From Hyphomicrobium denitrificans ATCC 51888 (GTDB lineage: Bacteria; Pseudomonadota; Alphaproteobacteria; Rhizobiales; Hyphomicrobiaceae), in NCBI RefSeq assembly GCF_000143145.1, contig NC_014313.1:310001-374000 (forward strand): a DNA stretch of 64,000 bases, read 5' to 3'. The translations under genes were made by a program, and so were the position numbers. Below are positions 52,177 through 59,027 of this stretch, in pieces (position 1 is the stretch's first letter; the number at the start of each line of letters is the position of its first letter). Under the pieces are notes generated by a model. The model searched no databases, had not been told where the DNA came from, and saw only the letters and a program-made list of their open reading frames with translations.

Positions 52177-52624
52177 CTATTCGAGTGGCAGGCGCACTTC
52201 GTCAAGAATGTCGTTATTCAGCGTGCCTAGCCGGTATTCGGCGCAACCGCCAGCAGGCAGGTTGGCGCGCCCGGAGTTCTCTCTTTTGTCCAGGAATGGC
52301 GCACCGCACTGGGTGAAGATGACAACTTTGTCTACGCCATAGGCCTCTAAGGCCCTCCTCGGCGCAGATCGAGGAGACCCGTCCCAGAAGTATTAGCCGA
52401 TGCCACGCCCGACATGCTGGGTTGCGACTATGCAGGAAGCCGAGCGTGACGTGGCGCAGGATGTGGGAATGAGTATCAGCGGGCGACACCGTCTGAAAGT
52501 GGTCTAGATATGTTTCCGCCTCTACCGACCGCGCCTTAATATGCGGCTTCAAAATCGGTACGGCGCGACGGGCTGCATTGACGAGCAATGGCGTGGCATT
52601 GATGAAAACTGCTTCGGCTGGCAC
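52177..52624 (-). pseudogene. Frameshifted unknown gene at the left edge of the island
   Basis: A GTG at 52624, one base after the previous stop, opens a frame reading VPAEAVFINATPLLVNAARR and onward to about 52340. The plausible C-terminus (EAYGVDKVVIFTQCG, then LPAGGCAEYRLGTLNN, ending at the stop 52177-52179) is in another frame. Moving between them needs one extra base or two missing bases. No family recognised for either part. It may be decayed, or the sequence may contain an indel error. Confidence 0.5.
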
Positions 52625-52625
52625 C

Positions 52626-53134
52626 TTATTGCTTTGCGTACCCGTCGAGCAAATCTCCGGAGAGATAATCAAAAATTGCCTTGCTTGCGCTCGCGCGGAG
52701 TCTGCTCTCGGTAGCGGGCATCATCAGCATTGAACGGACGTCGTGCCACGAAATCGGAACCTCCATTGTGGTTCCGCTATCCGCTGCCGGCGTGCAATCA
52801 ACCATGAGGTAGGAACGCGGTCTTTCAGGCTGTGGCGTCTGAAGATGATACGTAGACAGTCCGCGCACCCGGCCCGCAAGATTATGATCCGTGCGTTCCG
52901 GACAGCGAGGATGGCAGCTGTTTCAGGTACACCGTACCAGTCGAATGAAATCCGACTATCTTCCCGCGCGCTGTCGTATACGCTGTGAAAAGCGTTCAGA
53001 ACCGACGTCAGGGCGTGCTCGATATTTCCGGTCGCCTCATGAGCATCGATACGTACAAGTTCATATGCGCGGTAGACCACTTCCGGCAAGATGCGGAGCG
53101 CATGTGCAAACCCTTCAAATGCGTCAGTGATCAA
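52626..53134 (-). pseudogene. Unknown island gene with a probable 1-base frameshift
   Basis: The first frame starts at 53134 (MITDAFEGFAHALRILPEVV) and stays sensible to LAVRN near 52890. From there the neighbouring frame continues naturally (ERTDHNLAGRVRGLSTYHLQ, then MVDCTPAADSG, ending LLDGYAKQ at 52626). Adding one base within the CCGGAACGC at about 52890 would give a single protein of about 169 residues. No family recognised. It starts 24 bases after the HEPN-like gene ends and is part of the same minus-strand series. Confidence 0.6.
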
Positions 53135-53158
53135 GCCGGACCTCTCCTGAAAATCTCT

Positions 53159-53934
53159 TCAGTTCGCCACCGTGCTGTTGGAGGTAATGACAGTTACTTG
53201 CTCTTGGACAAGCATCTGAAAGGCCTCGAAAACGCCGTAGCAGTTGTCGCGCTGCGCGGCGAGAAGAGCACTCACCTCGGCAAGATCAAGAGCCTCCATC
53301 CCTCCGAACCCGTAAGATACGCTTTTGGTTTTCGGATCAACGTGGCGTGTGACTATCTGCGTCATACCGATGACGAAACGCGGTGATAGCCTGTGATAGT
53401 AAGCATTGCGAAAATCGTGCGTTGCCTCTCTGAATGCCTTTCCGTTTACAGTATCCAGTCGAGCCTTCAGACGCTTAAAGGCGACCAATCGCCTCCCAAC
53501 GTTTCGGCGACGTCCATCTTGATATCGCTATCCCACGTCAGGTTGTCTTGCCAATCCTTGCCTTGACGCGCCCTGTTGGCCTGATGGCAAAGGTGAGCAA
53601 TCGCGAAAACGAAACGCGCTTTGATGGCATAGGGCAGGCTCACAGCGACAGTCGCGACTGGATCAATGAACTCTCGGCAGGCTGCAAGCTTCTCATCGTT
53701 CGAGAGTGAACGCACGACGTCGGACCAGGCTTCAAGCCTCGGTACATAGCTCGTAAGGTCATTTATCACATTGGCGAGTTCGCGGGAGAACTCTGACAAC
53801 ATTTGGGAATAGGCCAACCACCGAGCATCAAGGCTCTTTGGTAGTGTATCCCAGTCGTAGGGCATGCTTCGCCCCGAGGCGGGTCGAGACGCAAAGTTAA
53901 GTTGGTAACGCTCGTACAGGGAAAGCAATGTCAT
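53159..53934 (-). pseudogene. HEPN-like protein gene split by a frameshift
   Basis: The first frame runs from the ATG at 53934 (MTLLSLYERYQLNFASRPAS) to a stop at 53467. The second runs from about 53488 (VAFKRLKARLDTVNGKAFRE) to the stop at 53159. Joined, they make one helical protein of about 258 residues. The second part holds DFRNAYYHRLSP, an Rx4H motif at 53393-53410 like that of HEPN nucleases. A one-base deletion near 53480 explains the split, although coupled translation of two proteins with a 22-base overlap is the alternative. It starts four bases after the PD-(D/E)XK gene. Confidence 0.6.
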
Positions 53935-53938
53935 GCGG

Positions 53939-54706
53939 CTAACGTTGGAGGATAGGCTGTGCCGAATGCGCCGCCTGCTCTGATGAGTTAGCCATGTCAA
54001 TCCAGAGATGGTGAAGTTGTATATCTGGCAGGCCTTCGCTTCGGCGATGAACAGATTCCAACAGCGCTGACCTTGCCGTCGTATCCCGCTTCGTGATGCG
54101 GAGCCCATCGTGAAGGGTCCATCCATCGACCGGACTTGCGATCAACCCCTCAAGCCAAGCGCGTATCTGGCCATCCCAGAAATCAATATCACGAGACTGG
54201 ATGTATCCGATCATGGCACCGATCGAGTGAGCGGCACCATGGTGCCCGGCTTTAAAACGTTGAACGCCACCAGTCGAGGAATGAGCGCTGTAGAGGTACT
54301 CGCGCTCGTCGCGCGTCGCGCTAGCTGGGATGGGCAGACGCTTGCACTCGATGGGAACGAGAGGCGAATATTGCGTGTACTCGCGGCCTTCGATCCAGAT
54401 TGTCGCTGCGCTGGGGGCTGGCACCAAGTCAACCTTTCGCCCGCCGACGATTTCGTCCGGCTCCTCGACACGGAACTGGAGAAAATCCCATCCTCCAGAC
54501 TTCCTTGTTGCGCTATTCATGTGGGCGCAGAGTCGTGACGTCAGCGATGTCTCGGCGGTTTCAATCGGGCGCTTGGGATCATCACGCCATTTGGGAAGCT
54601 CGCTAGCGATGAACTCTAGAAGGGTCAGACGCCATGCGGCCGGAAGATGAAGGTTCTGGTCCAGGGCGCCTGATTGGATTTTTGGTTCTTCTTGATCCGC
54701 CAGCAA
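53939..54706 (-). CDS. PD-(D/E)XK nuclease-like protein beside the methylase
   Basis: 255-residue protein with a PD-(D/E)XK-like core: Asp93 in GGRKVDLVPAP and Glu120-x-Lys122 in SPLVPIECKRLP, with a helix before (LTSRLCAHMNSATRKSGG). The rest includes RFKAGHHGAAHSIGAMIGYIQ, found in helical support regions of such enzymes. Start is a TTG three bases after the methylase stop, so it is tightly linked to that gene. Most likely the nuclease part of a restriction-type defence unit. No confirmed homologue is known to me. Confidence 0.68.
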   Translation of the reverse strand: MLADQEEPKIQSGALDQNLHLPAAWRLTLLEFIASELPKWRDDPKRPIETAETSLTSRLCAHMNSATRKSGGWDFLQFRVEEPDEIVGGRKVDLVPAPSAATIWIEGREYTQYSPLVPIECKRLPIPASATRDEREYLYSAHSSTGGVQRFKAGHHGAAHSIGAMIGYIQSRDIDFWDGQIRAWLEGLIASPVDGWTLHDGLRITKRDTTARSALLESVHRRSEGLPDIQLHHLWIDMANSSEQAAHSAQPILQR

Positions 54707-54709
54707 GGC

Positions 54710-57583
54710 TCAGAACCCCTGTGCACGGAGATCGGCGAGCACGTCATCAGCATCCCGTAATGCCGTGGAGCGGAGCCAATAGCGAAGGCGGTCGGGTTTT
54801 AACAAGAAGACAAAATTGCGATCGTAAATCCGAGCGATCCGGGTTACGGCGATGCTTGAGCCGCGCTTCTCACGAAGAAGGCTATCCAATCTGCCCCGCA
54901 ATTCACCGACTCCGGTCCAGTCGACCTTGCCGACGCCAAATACGAAAGGCTGACAGATGATGCCGGGCCAGCGTTGCGCTTCAAGTGCGCGCAAAGGTTT
55001 GTTCGCATAGACCGTACTGATCTGGGACGTAAAGCTTTCGGCGAAAGCCGGCAACGCTTGTCCGCCATCGAGCTTCATAACGTCGGAGTCGCTGCCCTTG
55101 CGGACAAAATCTCGTCCGTATCGCACGACGTCATCGATTAGAATCCGCTCGTTCATACTCAGATCGAGCGAGCCGTCTTCGGGATATGGAAGCGCCATGA
55201 TGTCGGCGCTAGCGATCGATGTTGCTCGCTGTGTGAATAACCGAATACTTGTTCCGGCAACATAGGCCTGAAGAGCAGGGGCGTTGGTCGCGATCCAGTC
55301 GCGTACCAGGCGTAAACGCTTAAGGTCGCCTTTGGGGGCGGCAAAACCGACGATTTCGTGCTTGTAGGTGAGATAGCTCTCCTCCCACATCGCATGATAG
55401 AGATCTTGGTGCTCCTTCATGAGCAGGATCGGAGGAGTGAAGCGCGCCTCCGACTTAGGATCCTTGATCGGTGCCTTTGGCACTTTGGTGATGGCGGACG
55501 CGTCAAGGCCTTTCGAGGAGAGCGCCTTAGTAGGCAGCAATCGCTGTCCGACAATGTGCTCTGCTGGCCGGGAAATCCCCTTCTGGCCAGCGATGTAGCC
55601 TTCACCGCTGTTCCAGCCACGTTCGGTCGCGTACTCACCAAGAGTGCGATATTTGCGCAACCGCTGAACGAAACTCAAAAGTCGATCACCGCCGAGTAGG
55701 TTGGCCCGCCAGAGATCGCTGTTGCTCGACAGTGCGGCATGCGGCACGCGATGAAGATCGTAGTAGTCGATCTCAAAACCCTGTTCCGCATTGGCTCGAC
55801 CGTTCCGGCGAAAGACAGCGTGCAGCAGCTTCGAAGCTGGGTTTGCCGGCTCCGACAACGCCACGACAATGACAACTTTGGGATCGGCTTCCCCCTTTTT
55901 GAAGAGGCCGCGGACGGACACAAAATCGAGAATCTCGCGAACATTCCAGCGCTTGAAGAAGCTCTCGCGGAATTCGCCTGCATGTTGATTGTAGAGGAAG
56001 CCTGATGGTTGAATCATGCTGAGGACGCCGCCTTCCGCAGTCATCCCCATGGCTTCATGCAGGAAGAGATAAGCGACTTGCTGGTCGGCGAGTTTCCCAT
56101 GCTGTTTGACATAGGCAGCGTAGGCACGCTTTGCCGCAGGCGTCGTAAGGCTGGACTCGAAGGGCGGATTGCCAACCAGAACACCAACTGGAGCTTTTAT
56201 GAGGGCCTCTTCCTTGGCTTCGAAGAAGCAGCGCTTGTGAAGGGAGGCGTCAGCAAGCTTCGGAAAGAGCTTCACGCTCGCGCGAATTTCTTCCGGTTCG
56301 AGTGCGTCGCAAAGTGCCAGGCAAAGGCTGAAGGCAGCAAGTTCGACTGCGCCAGCTTCCAGATCGATGCCATGGACACGATCCAGAAGAGTCCGCAGTT
56401 CATCCACGCCCGGCTTTGCCCAGTCGTTGCGGCTGCGCCAATGAAGCACCAGGCGCTTGTAGGCCTCAACGAGGAAAACCCCCGAGCCACACGCAGGATC
56501 AAGAACGATTTCTCGGCTCGCCATCAAGCGGTCGATACGGTCCCAGCTCAGTGCTTCGTCGAGCATTAGACGCACCAGCGTCGGGGGAGTGTAGACCGAG
56601 CTGTCGGTATCGGTGACGAACAGCTGGTAGATATGACTGATTAGCTCGACGGGGAGATCTTTAAACGAATAAAGGCGCCAGAAGCTAAGTTGGCCACCGG
56701 CGTCCTCATATCCTTCCACGAGACTGGCAAATCGCGCCAGTTGCCTGCTGGATTTTAATGCGCCTGCTTCATCATCCTTCAAAGCAAAGACGTGCCCGTT
56801 GAAACGGTCCTCTAGGGCTTTCAGCATTTCGACAAGCGCAGCCCCGTCGCGCAACACTTCGAAGAAGCGGCTCGCATCCTTTAGGAAGCGCCCAAAGAAG
56901 TCCGGCCCCAAAACGCCTCGCTCTTCGAGGTAGGCGATAAGCAAGGAGAGGATCAGCAGCCGTCGACGCAGGCCAGCGGTAAGCAGACGCTTGTTACTGA
57001 GTTCGTCATTGAGGTCTCGGACAGCCTCCACCAGCTTTCGGTGTGCGGCTTTCTGGGCCGAGAGCATCAGACGGCAGGCGTTGGGGTCATCCCAGAGGGT
57101 GCCATTGCGAATGCGTTCGGCGTCCCACCATGCTTCCGTCGCGGCGATACGGGAACCGATGTCAAGGAATCTGAAAGGCTTGCAAATCTGTTCTCCGGTC
57201 GGAGAAATGAAATCTGGATCGTGTGCGCAGCGGAACAGCTGAATCTGTCCAGGAGTCCTCCGATAGAGGAGCGGCACGCCGCCCCAACTCCAAAGACGCT
57301 TGTGCAAATCGGCGAATTCTTCGTCGTCGCCTCCGTCCCTTGAAACGAAGACAAACGCCTGGGGAACGGGCGCGCGTCCATTGCGTCCCACTTCGAAGAA
57401 AACAGAGTGCGCCTTATAGAAGCGCGCCTTCTCTATGGTCGCGACTTCCTCGGGAGGACGTCCGTTCCGATCATAACCGTCGACAATGACCAAGCCGTCG
57501 ATCTGTTGCGCCGCATTTGCTTGGTCGAGTTGAACGAACCAGCGGTTCGGCTCGGCAGCGTCGCTGAAGAGGTCAAGCGTCAT
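54710..57583 (-). CDS. Eco57I-like N6-adenine DNA methylase of a restriction/defence island
   Basis: 957-residue protein. Residues 1-300 form a large N-terminal region without clear catalytic residues. The class I methyltransferase domain follows: motif I DPACGSGVFLVEAYKR at 362, GIDLEAGAVELAAFSL for the second strand, and motif IV GNPPFESS at 471-475, as in N6-adenine methylases. The C-terminal 350 residues resemble target-recognition regions of Type IIG-like proteins (RRLLPTKAL type region, KPLRALEAQRWPG). It likely methylates adenine in a specific DNA site, with a nuclease either in its own N-terminus or in the next gene. It is preceded by a ribbon-helix-helix gene. Confidence 0.88.
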   Translation of the reverse strand: MTLDLFSDAAEPNRWFVQLDQANAAQQIDGLVIVDGYDRNGRPPEEVATIEKARFYKAHSVFFEVGRNGRAPVPQAFVFVSRDGGDDEEFADLHKRLWSWGGVPLLYRRTPGQIQLFRCAHDPDFISPTGEQICKPFRFLDIGSRIAATEAWWDAERIRNGTLWDDPNACRLMLSAQKAAHRKLVEAVRDLNDELSNKRLLTAGLRRRLLILSLLIAYLEERGVLGPDFFGRFLKDASRFFEVLRDGAALVEMLKALEDRFNGHVFALKDDEAGALKSSRQLARFASLVEGYEDAGGQLSFWRLYSFKDLPVELISHIYQLFVTDTDSSVYTPPTLVRLMLDEALSWDRIDRLMASREIVLDPACGSGVFLVEAYKRLVLHWRSRNDWAKPGVDELRTLLDRVHGIDLEAGAVELAAFSLCLALCDALEPEEIRASVKLFPKLADASLHKRCFFEAKEEALIKAPVGVLVGNPPFESSLTTPAAKRAYAAYVKQHGKLADQQVAYLFLHEAMGMTAEGGVLSMIQPSGFLYNQHAGEFRESFFKRWNVREILDFVSVRGLFKKGEADPKVVIVVALSEPANPASKLLHAVFRRNGRANAEQGFEIDYYDLHRVPHAALSSNSDLWRANLLGGDRLLSFVQRLRKYRTLGEYATERGWNSGEGYIAGQKGISRPAEHIVGQRLLPTKALSSKGLDASAITKVPKAPIKDPKSEARFTPPILLMKEHQDLYHAMWEESYLTYKHEIVGFAAPKGDLKRLRLVRDWIATNAPALQAYVAGTSIRLFTQRATSIASADIMALPYPEDGSLDLSMNERILIDDVVRYGRDFVRKGSDSDVMKLDGGQALPAFAESFTSQISTVYANKPLRALEAQRWPGIICQPFVFGVGKVDWTGVGELRGRLDSLLREKRGSSIAVTRIARIYDRNFVFLLKPDRLRYWLRSTALRDADDVLADLRAQGF

Positions 57584-57646
57584 CGTGACGCCTTGTTGCG
57601 CTGCGTGCCTTGATTCTGGGCTGTGGCTGGGACATCCGCGAGGCAG

Positions 57647-57838
57647 TCACTGGCTGCGTCGCTTCTTCGAAAGGGCGAAGCCTTCTTTCAGAAGGTCGAC
57701 CATCGAGATCCCTTGGCTCACCGCGTAGCCTTTGAACTCCTTCTTGAATTCTGGGGTGACTTTGAAGTTGAGCGAACTGCCCTTGTCGCTCTCTTCAGGA
57801 GCGTCCTTCTTGCTTGCGCGGGCAGGATTCTCAGCCAT
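57647..57838 (-). CDS. Small ribbon-helix-helix-like regulator
   Basis: 63-residue basic protein. After a charged N-terminus comes SLNFKVTPEFKKEFKGYAVSQGISMVDLLKEGFALSKKRR, cited in parts: the strand LNFKVTPEFKKEFK, then two helices. This fits a ribbon-helix-helix DNA-binding fold as in antitoxins and controller proteins. It lies 63 bases upstream of the methylase on the same strand and has its own promoter with a palindrome. Probable autoregulator of the island operon. Confidence 0.72.
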   Translation of the reverse strand: MAENPARASKKDAPEESDKGSSLNFKVTPEFKKEFKGYAVSQGISMVDLLKEGFALSKKRRSQ

Positions 57839-57878
57839 GACGGTCAACCTGTATCGGTCCTCGACCGGATGGAGCTTT

Positions 57879-57916
57879 GATTCTAAGAATCATAACGAAA
57901 TCTGCCTTTCTTGCAA
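57879..57916 (-). promoter_or_regulatory. Promoter with overlapping palindrome upstream of the RHH gene
   Basis: On the minus strand, TTGCAA (57911-57916) and TATGAT (57889-57894) are 16 bases apart, a good sigma-70-like pair. The palindrome GATTC-TTA-GAATC (57879-57891) overlaps the end of the -10 box and the likely start site, so a bound dimer would block transcription. Two more overlapping dyads lie upstream at 57933-57961. Confidence 0.6.
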
Positions 57917-57932
57917 GACTGAAAGCCAATAA

Positions 57933-57961
57933 TCTGGAAAGCCAGAAATATGGTTTTCTGG
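57933..57961. repeat. Overlapping inverted repeats upstream of the RHH promoter
   Basis: TCTGG-AAAG-CCAGA (57933-57946) and CCAGAAA-N6-TTTCTGG (57942-57961) share the CCAGA arm. They could be further operator half-sites for the ribbon-helix-helix protein or remnants of the recombinase element. Confidence 0.45.
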
Positions 57962-57984
57962 ATTTATGGGGGCGTTGGTGCATT

Positions 57985-58965
57985 TCCGTCCGCCTATCGG
58001 CTATTGTATCGTCGCAGCCGAGCAGCGCGGATCGAAGACCAAGAAGAAGCTGGAGATCGACCCGCTGCACGCCGACACCGTGCGGCTGATCTATCGCCTG
58101 TTCCTTGAAGGTGATGGCATGTCCGGCGCGCTGGGCGTCAAGGCTATTGCGACCTACCTCAACGAGCGCCGCATCTTCACCCGCGACGGCGGCCGATGGG
58201 GCTTGGCGCAAGTCCATGCCATCCTGACCCGCACCACCTATATCGGCGAGCACAGGTTCAATACGCGCTCGCACAAGGACCGCCAGAAGAAGCCCGAGAG
58301 CGAGGTCGCCATCATGGCGGTACCGCCCTTGATTGAGCGGGAGCTTTTCGACGCGGCGCAAGCCCGTCTCAAATCCCGTCAGCCGATGGTGACGCCGGCG
58401 CGCGTTTCGAGCGGCCCGACGCTGCTGACCGGCATTTGCTTCTGCGCCAAGTGCGGGGGCGCTATGACGCTGCGCACTGGCCGGGGCAGCGCGGGCGGCA
58501 CCTATCGGTATTACACTTGCTCGACCAAGGCGCGGCAGGGCAAGACTGGCTGCGAGGGTCGCACGATCCAGATGGACAGGCTTGACCATCTTGTCGTCGA
58601 TCACATCGAGGGCCGCTGTCGGAAATCTGCATCACGTCGAGCTTGGCTGCGACGCGCGGCAGAATGTTTTTGCCATAAGCCGTCGCCGCCGCGACGATCG
58701 CCGAATAATTTCCAGCGATCGATACGATCAGCGCCGTGACTTCTCCTTCGCCCGCAAGGCGCGAGAGCGGATACGGCTGGAAGATGGCGGCTATCGCCGT
58801 GACCATCTGCGCTCGCCTGCACAGCGTGTCGAAGTTGACGACGCTGAGGCTCGCATCATGGGATCGAAGTCGGAATTGCTGCGAACGCTCGTCGCCGCCG
58901 CTTCGGGAGGGAAATCGGCGGCGTTCGGCGTTCATAGTTCTGTACTGAAATGGCGCACCCGGTAG
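57985..58965 (+). pseudogene. Broken serine recombinase with internal foreign segment
   Basis: Remains of a large serine recombinase. The N-terminal catalytic resolvase domain is missing. The recombinase domain (RPPIGY, KKLEIDPLHADTVRLIYRLF) and zinc ribbon (CFCAKCGGAMTLRTGRG, YYTCSTKARQGKTGC) run from 57985 to HIEGR at 58616. The coiled-coil part is then absent. The C-terminal end ([49 protein letters not shown]) resumes in another frame at about 58738 and stops at 58965. Between them is about 120 bases of antisense etfA. The last codons lie in the 3' end of tRNA-Arg. Confidence 0.85.
58618..58734 (-). pseudogene. Fragment of electron transfer flavoprotein alpha gene (etfA)
   Basis: On the minus strand this stretch encodes about 39 residues, with ALIVSIAGNYSAIVAAATAY then GKNILPRVAAKLDVMQISD. 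This is a middle piece of EtfA, around the conserved ATAFGKN..PRVAA region. Both ends stop abruptly at recombinase sequence. It is too short to work and must come from elsewhere in the genome or from a donor. Confidence 0.8.
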
Positions 58966-59027
58966 GATTCGAACCTACGACCTCTGCCTTCGGAGGGCAG
59001 CACTCTATCCAGCTGAGCTACGGGTGC
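58951..59027 (-). tRNA. tRNA-Arg (anticodon CCG)
   Basis: 77-base tRNA with CCA encoded. The 5' GCACCCG pairs with CGGGTGC before GCCA. D arm GCTC-AGCTGGATA-GAGT; anticodon stem CTGCC/GGCAG with loop CTCCGAA, so anticodon CCG reading CGG; T arm with GTTCGAATC. The recombinase remnant abuts and overlaps its 3' end, so this gene is the likely integration site of the island. Confidence 0.95.

Follow-up and report, generated by a model that had tools for sequence, protein, structure and literature searches.

A putative restriction-modification operon of Hyphomicrobium denitrificans with a ribbon-helix-helix regulator and a nuclease family outside existing models

We analysed a series of minus-strand genes in Hyphomicrobium denitrificans ATCC 51888, lying in a 64,000-nucleotide stretch of contig NC_014313.1 (positions 310,001 to 374,000 of the forward strand; hereafter the window, whose own numbering is used throughout). 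Three of these genes, encoding a small ribbon-helix-helix (RHH) protein, a 957-aa methylase and a 255-aa PD-(D/E)XK-like protein, probably (we estimate roughly 0.78) form a Type II-like restriction-modification (R-M) operon with a nuclease of an unmodelled family and an RHH repressor of the MetJ/Omega-like kind. This reading draws on the order of the genes, their intact frames and conservation, motifs of catalytic type, co-divergence and an operator-like array that co-occurs with the RHH gene. All three reading frames are open; the RHH-like gene is separated from the methylase gene by 63 bases, and the nuclease gene starts 3 bases past the methylase stop. A first-pass annotation of the window had named a series of minus-strand open reading frames (ORFs) beside a tRNA, all of which are present, and had proposed a single operon that also took in HEPN-like genes. 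The conservation of the pair, the spacing and the co-divergence described below uphold the operon for the RHH, methylase and PD-(D/E)XK genes and leave the HEPN-like genes outside it.

Results

Methylase searches recovered 19 homologous loci outside the window (L002-L008 and L037-L048), which include Mesorhizobium, Aminobacter, Frankia, Acidobacteriaceae, Phycisphaerae and 12 alphaproteobacterial plasmids. The nuclease adjoins the methylase in all 19, two of which are damaged, the methylase of L044 and the nuclease of L048 each being frame-broken. Of the partners previously tied to the methylase, then, the nuclease holds its place in every locus, the RHH gene is missing from 4/19 and the HEPN-like genes are missing from all. 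Among the plasmid methylase matches listed (40 of 73 matching records), the nuclease is adjacent in every one of the 20 records whose match reaches at least 80% coverage; 12 of these near-full records were compared as sequence and the other 8 were judged by coordinates. Moreover, 21 plasmid records match the nuclease, 20 of them being exactly the near-full methylase records and the 21st a 50-residue fragment. The nuclease is annotated as a 'hypothetical protein' in 19 of the 21, whilst the other two list no gene there. Four of 11 annotated plasmid regions have Shedu, AbiH, SIR2 or TIR genes in the vicinity, and further weak methylase matches were seen beside the unit in L002 (14713-15030), L003 (6950-6822) and L005 (8527-7715).

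Methylase and nuclease also diverge together. Their distance matrices correlate with r 0.944 over 18 sequences (0 of 2000 permutations reach it), and in a more distant methylase group with r 0.98 over 7 sequences (1 of 2000), permutations that are only a guide because the sequences are related. This distant group, at about 24-33% identity, was found at 8 loci (L074-L078, L080, L081 and L110, the last with its methylase broken over two frames). In all 8 an ORF of 213-259 aa overlaps or adjoins the end of the methylase gene and carries E-[CA]-K, GxxRF and M[IL][GA]Y. An alignment of 7 distant nucleases has E-x-K in 7/7 and the aligned D in 6/7, the D being aligned in all distant relatives other than L080, the most divergent. 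Comparison of the two nuclease alignments by hhalign returned 97.7%, with E 1.8e-12 over 195 columns.

As a control, the joint nuclease profile was run against 16 regions around other methylase matches; a first control (33 loci, short flanks) was too weak and was replaced by these wider regions. Fourteen had no match at E up to 1. The two that did were L110, which proved to belong to the distant group, and L096. The latter shows a third form of the unit, where a regulator that looks MerR-like by eye is followed by a methylase in two frames and then by a 288-aa relative of the nuclease. The joint profile was built with the 7 other distant nucleases, which leaves L110 and L096 as its only independent matches. 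When just the family-1 profile was used, E ranged from 8.6e-6 to 0.0037 for L110 and 6 of these 7, and was 0.021 for L096. In the reverse test, the nuclease profile gave 4 matches in 398 genomes of the phylum, of which 2 were new (L111 and L112) and both lay beside a methylase; such genome searches are insensitive, one of them recovering 2/7 distant nucleases in its set (G028 and G323). In L111 all three genes stand in the order RHH, methylase, nuclease (identities of 58, 61 and 52%), and L112 has a distant methylase with a MerR-looking regulator. The forms of the pair in L096 (5525-9878, reverse strand) and L112 (3369-7899) thus begin with a MerR-looking regulator in place of the RHH gene, and the two regulators are similar to each other by eye. 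One genome of the same genus carries the distant form of the pair.

The 957-aa protein is predicted to be a gamma-class N6-adenine DNA methyltransferase and to methylate DNA. Its match to Pfam Eco57I (E 1.4e-13; 51.8 bits against a cut-off of 25.3) bears out the Eco57I-like label that it had been given, and it also exceeds the Pfam cut-offs for N6_Mtase and MmeI_Mtase. DPACGSG (the A of which varies) and NPPF are invariant in an alignment of 18 methylases, from which L044 (methylase frame broken) and L048 were omitted. The best PADLOC models are those of Type IIG (REase_MTase_IIG, E 9.3e-28), and the PDB profile matches include adenine methylases, BsaXI, BrxX and BpuSI. The PD-(D/E)XK pattern (D..E-x-K) was not seen by eye in the N-terminus of the methylase. 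A full-length match occurs in 1 of 22 same-genus genomes, that of the window itself, with partial matches in 4 others, one of which (G391) is a distant methylase relative. Across 385 genomes of the class the full-length form was found in 2, the window's own and G095.

The 255-aa protein is most likely a PD-(D/E)XK-like nuclease from a family without an existing model. Its motifs comprise E52, D93, E120-C-K122, GxxRF and MIGY; in an alignment of 19 nucleases (omitting that of L048, which is in two frames) E52, D93, E120 and K122 are invariant, and likewise G147, R150 and F151 of GxxRF. E, D and then E-x-K in that order are the PD-(D/E)XK signature. The 3-base spacing given in the first-pass annotation is confirmed, and its PD-(D/E)XK-like label agrees with the invariant residues as a prediction from sequence. 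The window nuclease had no match in Pfam, NCBIfam, PADLOC or PHROGs, nor did the alignment match any PDB profile at E up to 10. When the 19 nucleases were scanned singly in Pfam, 8 families were hit, each by a single nuclease (best E 0.014). Distant nucleases other than that of L081, which these scans omitted, gave only sub-cut-off matches in Pfam (best TfoX_C, E 0.0049) and none in PADLOC. Among 60 genomes of the family the nuclease is present in one, the window's own. No phage record matched it; viral contigs yielded one relative (L055), in a stretch with insertion-element-like ORFs and with no methylase beside it, and no relative of the methylase.

The RHH-like protein of the window matches RHH_10 and Antitox_RHH below cut-off and phrog_6024 at E 2.5e-11, and found no match among PDB profiles at E up to 10. 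Across 16 aligned members (L006, L007, L044 and L048, in which no RHH was found, being omitted), RHH_10 is matched at E up to 1 by 15 and Antitox_RHH by 11, and the strand and helix residues are kept. The gene is present in 15 of the 19 homologous loci and in 18 of the 20 near-full plasmid records; plasmid records with the RHH number 26, made up of those 18, one with a truncated methylase and 7 weaker matches outside the near-full set. A different RHH-like gene lies just upstream of the distant methylase in L077 (5154-5384; Antitox_RHH E 0.0055, below cut-off).

The shared control feature of these loci is an array with an 8-bp period, not a palindrome. An RHH protein with a palindromic promoter had been described for the window, where the palindrome TGATTCTTAGAATCA does exist, overlapping the -10 region; the RHH assignment is backed by conserved residues with a family match below cut-off. 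Conservation of the palindrome did not follow, a similar sequence being found in L002 only among the 15 other upstream regions, and we rejected it as a conserved operator. The one sigma-70-like site found by a promoter scan of 57600-58100 (TTGCAA-16-TATGAT) is covered by the array, whose lag-8 self-identity of 0.435 is reached by 0.0002 of 6494 background segments. Sites resembling GAAAGNCNGAAATC (at most 2 mismatches), a motif taken from these same regions, occur upstream of the RHH gene in 15 of 16 regions, with 42 sites as against a mean of 0.54 and a maximum of 3 in shuffles. When 14 of the 16 regions (L005 and L043 omitted) were anchored on this motif, lag-8 self-identity was 0.429 versus 0.254 in shuffled sequence (z 15.4), with z 10.1 at lag 16. 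A fixed-region test gave a lag-8 signal matched by at most 1.03% of the 6494 background segments in 12/16 regions, and 8 was the best lag of 3-20 in 12/16. The array is absent from the 4 loci without an RHH gene (highest self-identity 0.337, 24 segments). Upstream of 4036 in L078, which has no recognised RHH, lag-8 self-identity is 0.413, several lags and offsets having been tried. We infer that the RHH-like protein would act on the array as an autorepressor.

Downstream of the nuclease gene lie two HEPN-like remnants. What had been called a 258-aa HEPN protein is one gene split over two frames, whose relatives in L049 (272 aa) and L050 (267 aa) are full-length single frames; R-N-x3-H is kept in the relatives from L049, L050, L051 and L054. 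Similarly, a supposed further protein at 52626-52868 proved to be a fragment of a second HEPN-like gene, which is broken into three pieces in different frames and is related to a single 283-aa frame with RNARHH in L052 and to a gene split in two pieces in L053. Neither remnant carries its HEPN motif in an intact gene, the first being frameshifted and the frame of the second breaking at the motif. Three frame breaks in two adjacent genes beside three open ones suggest decay, and sequencing error is possible. The HEPN-like pieces had no match in any of the 19 homologous loci (E 1e-3; flanks of 1.5-10 kb), nor in L079, L111 or L112, and relatives of the first gene adjoin a D..D-C-K protein (L049) or other genes. 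Therefore, with absence from the homologous loci, frameshifts and differing neighbours, we rejected HEPN proteins as components of the unit. In a Sphingomonas plasmid (L049, 3728-5333) the HEPN-like gene overlaps a 265-aa D..D-C-K gene, a possible nuclease/HEPN pair, and in a Mesorhizobium plasmid (L052, 3643-5810) a helix-turn-helix (HTH) regulator, an ImmA/IrrE peptidase and the HEPN-like gene stand in a row.

Lastly, we considered the setting of the operon (Table 1). G+C content is 0.53-0.58 across about 52.2-57.9 kb versus 0.61-0.66 in the adjoining stretches on both sides, which is weak evidence for an island because 48.0-50.4 kb is equally low (0.54-0.58). On the left flank, homology to three same-genus genomes ends at position 52270. 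This is also a rearrangement point, because those three genomes have the helicase gene and polA at widely separated positions, and for the same reason a neat empty site at 52270 was rejected. Pfam reported no catalytic resolvase domain in the serine recombinase remnant. The flank break and this remnant suggest that the operon region was acquired as an island, at a place that has undergone rearrangement. Eleven bases from the 3′ end of tRNA-Arg (GGTGCGCCATT, minus strand; 58949-58959) recur at 52295-52305; near the left edge of the putative island this repeat is a possible attachment site, too short to serve as proof of integration.

Table 1. Positions of the operon, its control region and neighbouring features in the window
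Feature	Position	Strand	Remarks
RHH-like gene	57650-57838 (stop 57647-57649)	minus	63 aa, ATG start
N6-adenine methylase gene (predicted)	54710-57583	minus	957 aa, gamma-class
PD-(D/E)XK-like nuclease gene	53939-54706	minus	255 aa
8-bp-period operator-like array	57890-57969	minus	covers RHH promoter
Promoter	-35 TTGCAA 57916-57911, -10 TATGAT 57894-57889	minus	spacing 16
Palindrome TGATTCTTAGAATCA	57878-57892	minus	overlaps -10 region
First HEPN-like remnant	53159-53934	minus	RNAYYH; two frames (53934-53467, 53488-53159)
Second HEPN-like remnant	52484-53134	minus	three frames: 53131-52889, 52868-52632, about 52609-52484
Serine recombinase remnant	57966-58739	plus	Pfam Recombinase E 2.2e-19, Zn_ribbon_recom E 3.3e-17
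tRNA-Arg	58951-59027		near the minus-strand series

Discussion

If the three genes form an R-M operon, then methylation, cleavage, a common target and repression can be predicted for it. The large methylase would mark an adenine at a particular target site in host DNA, and the small PD-(D/E)XK protein would cut the same site when unmarked, as in invading phage or plasmid DNA. The RHH repressor would bind side by side on the 8-bp array over the -35 and -10 elements, limiting transcription of all three genes; this would be the logic of Omega-epsilon-zeta toxin-antitoxin operons, with the repressor standing where a helix-turn-helix C protein is customary in R-M operons. Moreover, the large size of the methylase (957 aa), the small size of the nuclease (238-aa core) and their tight co-divergence raise the possibility that the nuclease depends on the methylase to find its target, as in a split Type IIG enzyme. 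A more ambitious proposal, which we offer tentatively and at somewhat less than even odds, is that the pair represents a 'split Type IIG' family in which a large methylase recognises the target on behalf of a small, obligate partner nuclease from the neighbouring gene. Such a family would carry several phylum labels, would be missed by defence-finding models and would have exchangeable regulators, here a MetJ/Omega-like RHH repressor setting the dose.

Several points weigh against the R-M operon. The PD-(D/E)XK assignment comes from motifs, neither Pfam nor the PDB having given a profile match, and the L080 nuclease, weak with the family-1 profile (E 0.1), was put into the joint profile by choice. 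Co-divergence by itself is no proof of a complex. The RHH gene is not essential, as it was not found in 4/19 loci, and 4 of the 16 regions with it (L003, L005, L043 and L045) have no significant lag-8 signal. The GAAAGNCNGAAATC motif was derived from the regions in which it was counted, and the 14-region periodicity test was anchored on a motif from the same sequences. Finally, the nonsynonymous-to-synonymous ratios (dN/dS) against L002-L004, which we count in favour of the operon, at 0.046-0.049 for the methylase and 0.040-0.080 across the genes where computable (the nuclease against L004 was not), are only rough because dS is near saturation (1.2-2.5).

The methylase core is of the same gamma-class N6-adenine type as in Type IIG/IIC enzymes (Eco57I, MmeI, BpuSI, BsaXI), whereas here cleavage is probably the task of a small protein of its own, encoded by the next gene. 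An RHH repressor on its own promoter would be a likeness to Omega-epsilon-zeta, paaR-paaA-parE and MetJ; the first two control an antitoxin and a toxin, in contrast to a methylase and a nuclease. MetJ operators are built of 8-bp boxes. The Omega repressor, itself an RHH protein, binds cooperatively to repeats in its own promoter, according to the accessible text of PMC3874152. C-protein R-M operons are alike in encoding a small DNA-binding protein with the R-M genes and in their repeated promoter sites, but C proteins bind via an HTH (same portion of PMC3874152), unlike the RHH protein and 8-bp-period array found here. Type II systems with a separate gamma-class N6-methyladenine methylase, such as AhdI (Type IIH; accessible part of PMC4081073), resemble this operon in having separate methylase and nuclease genes, and differ from its large single-chain methylase, unmodelled nuclease family and RHH regulator.

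The related adenine methylases of BREX PglX and of DUF499-centred BREX-related systems (available sections of PMC12839542) raise another explanation, in which a BREX-like or other system would methylate host DNA and block phage without cleavage, the PD-(D/E)XK protein being a regulator or nickase. We regard this as improbable. The methylase does resemble PglX (PADLOC PglX, E 2e-14), but with NCBIfam BREX_2 PglX it scores 48.1 bits against a cut-off of 400, so that the equivalog threshold is not reached. An ATPase, a helicase and PglZ form no recurring set in the annotated plasmid neighbourhoods, where no profile search for them was made. Of the window's genes, only the nuclease and the RHH gene recur with the methylase in the 19 loci (other shared genes were not searched for), and the catalytic-type residues of the nuclease are invariant. 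This constancy bears also on a modification-dependent, Type IV-like nuclease beside a solitary methylase with a regulatory role. We give that option the least credence of all, as constant pairing and co-divergence with the methylase would mean that the host cuts itself.

Scarcely more credible is the layered defence system of the first-pass annotation, in which methylase, DNase and HEPN RNase would act together with the HEPN proteins as a suicide back-up. The genes do stand in line with short gaps, RN-x3-H is present in the first remnant and 4 relatives, and HEPN back-ups have been proposed for BREX, as far as the available sections of PMC12839542 go; but the HEPN-like pieces occur in 0/19 loci and in neither L111 nor L112, both genes are frameshifted in the window, and their relatives stand beside different genes. 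The strongest rival, though in our view still unlikely, holds that the operon is mainly an addiction module of plasmids and islands, whose loss would let the nuclease attack unmethylated chromosomal sites. It would be compatible with an R-M operon and would suit both the 20 plasmid records (among the matches listed) and the repressor-first order, which recalls the Omega-epsilon-zeta and PaaR systems (accessible text of PMC3874152). However, the operon occurs on chromosomes too, the single 3.64-Mb contig of the window being one case, and has no feature that separates it from other R-M systems.

In summary, we favour a Type II-like R-M operon. The titles and abstract openings that we searched, covering few subscription papers and lying outside REBASE, described no such pair and no RHH-run R-M operon, which is no proof of absence. 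Given that the nuclease is unmodelled in four libraries and annotated as 'hypothetical', surveys would class these loci as methylases, either solitary or of Type IIG, and would thereby overlook a probable barrier by restriction that rhizobial and related plasmids carry. If our reading is true, this would be an R-M operon whose regulator is an RHH repressor acting through an 8-bp operator array, and the pair would allow a test of the idea that a nuclease can make use of the target recognition of a methylase.

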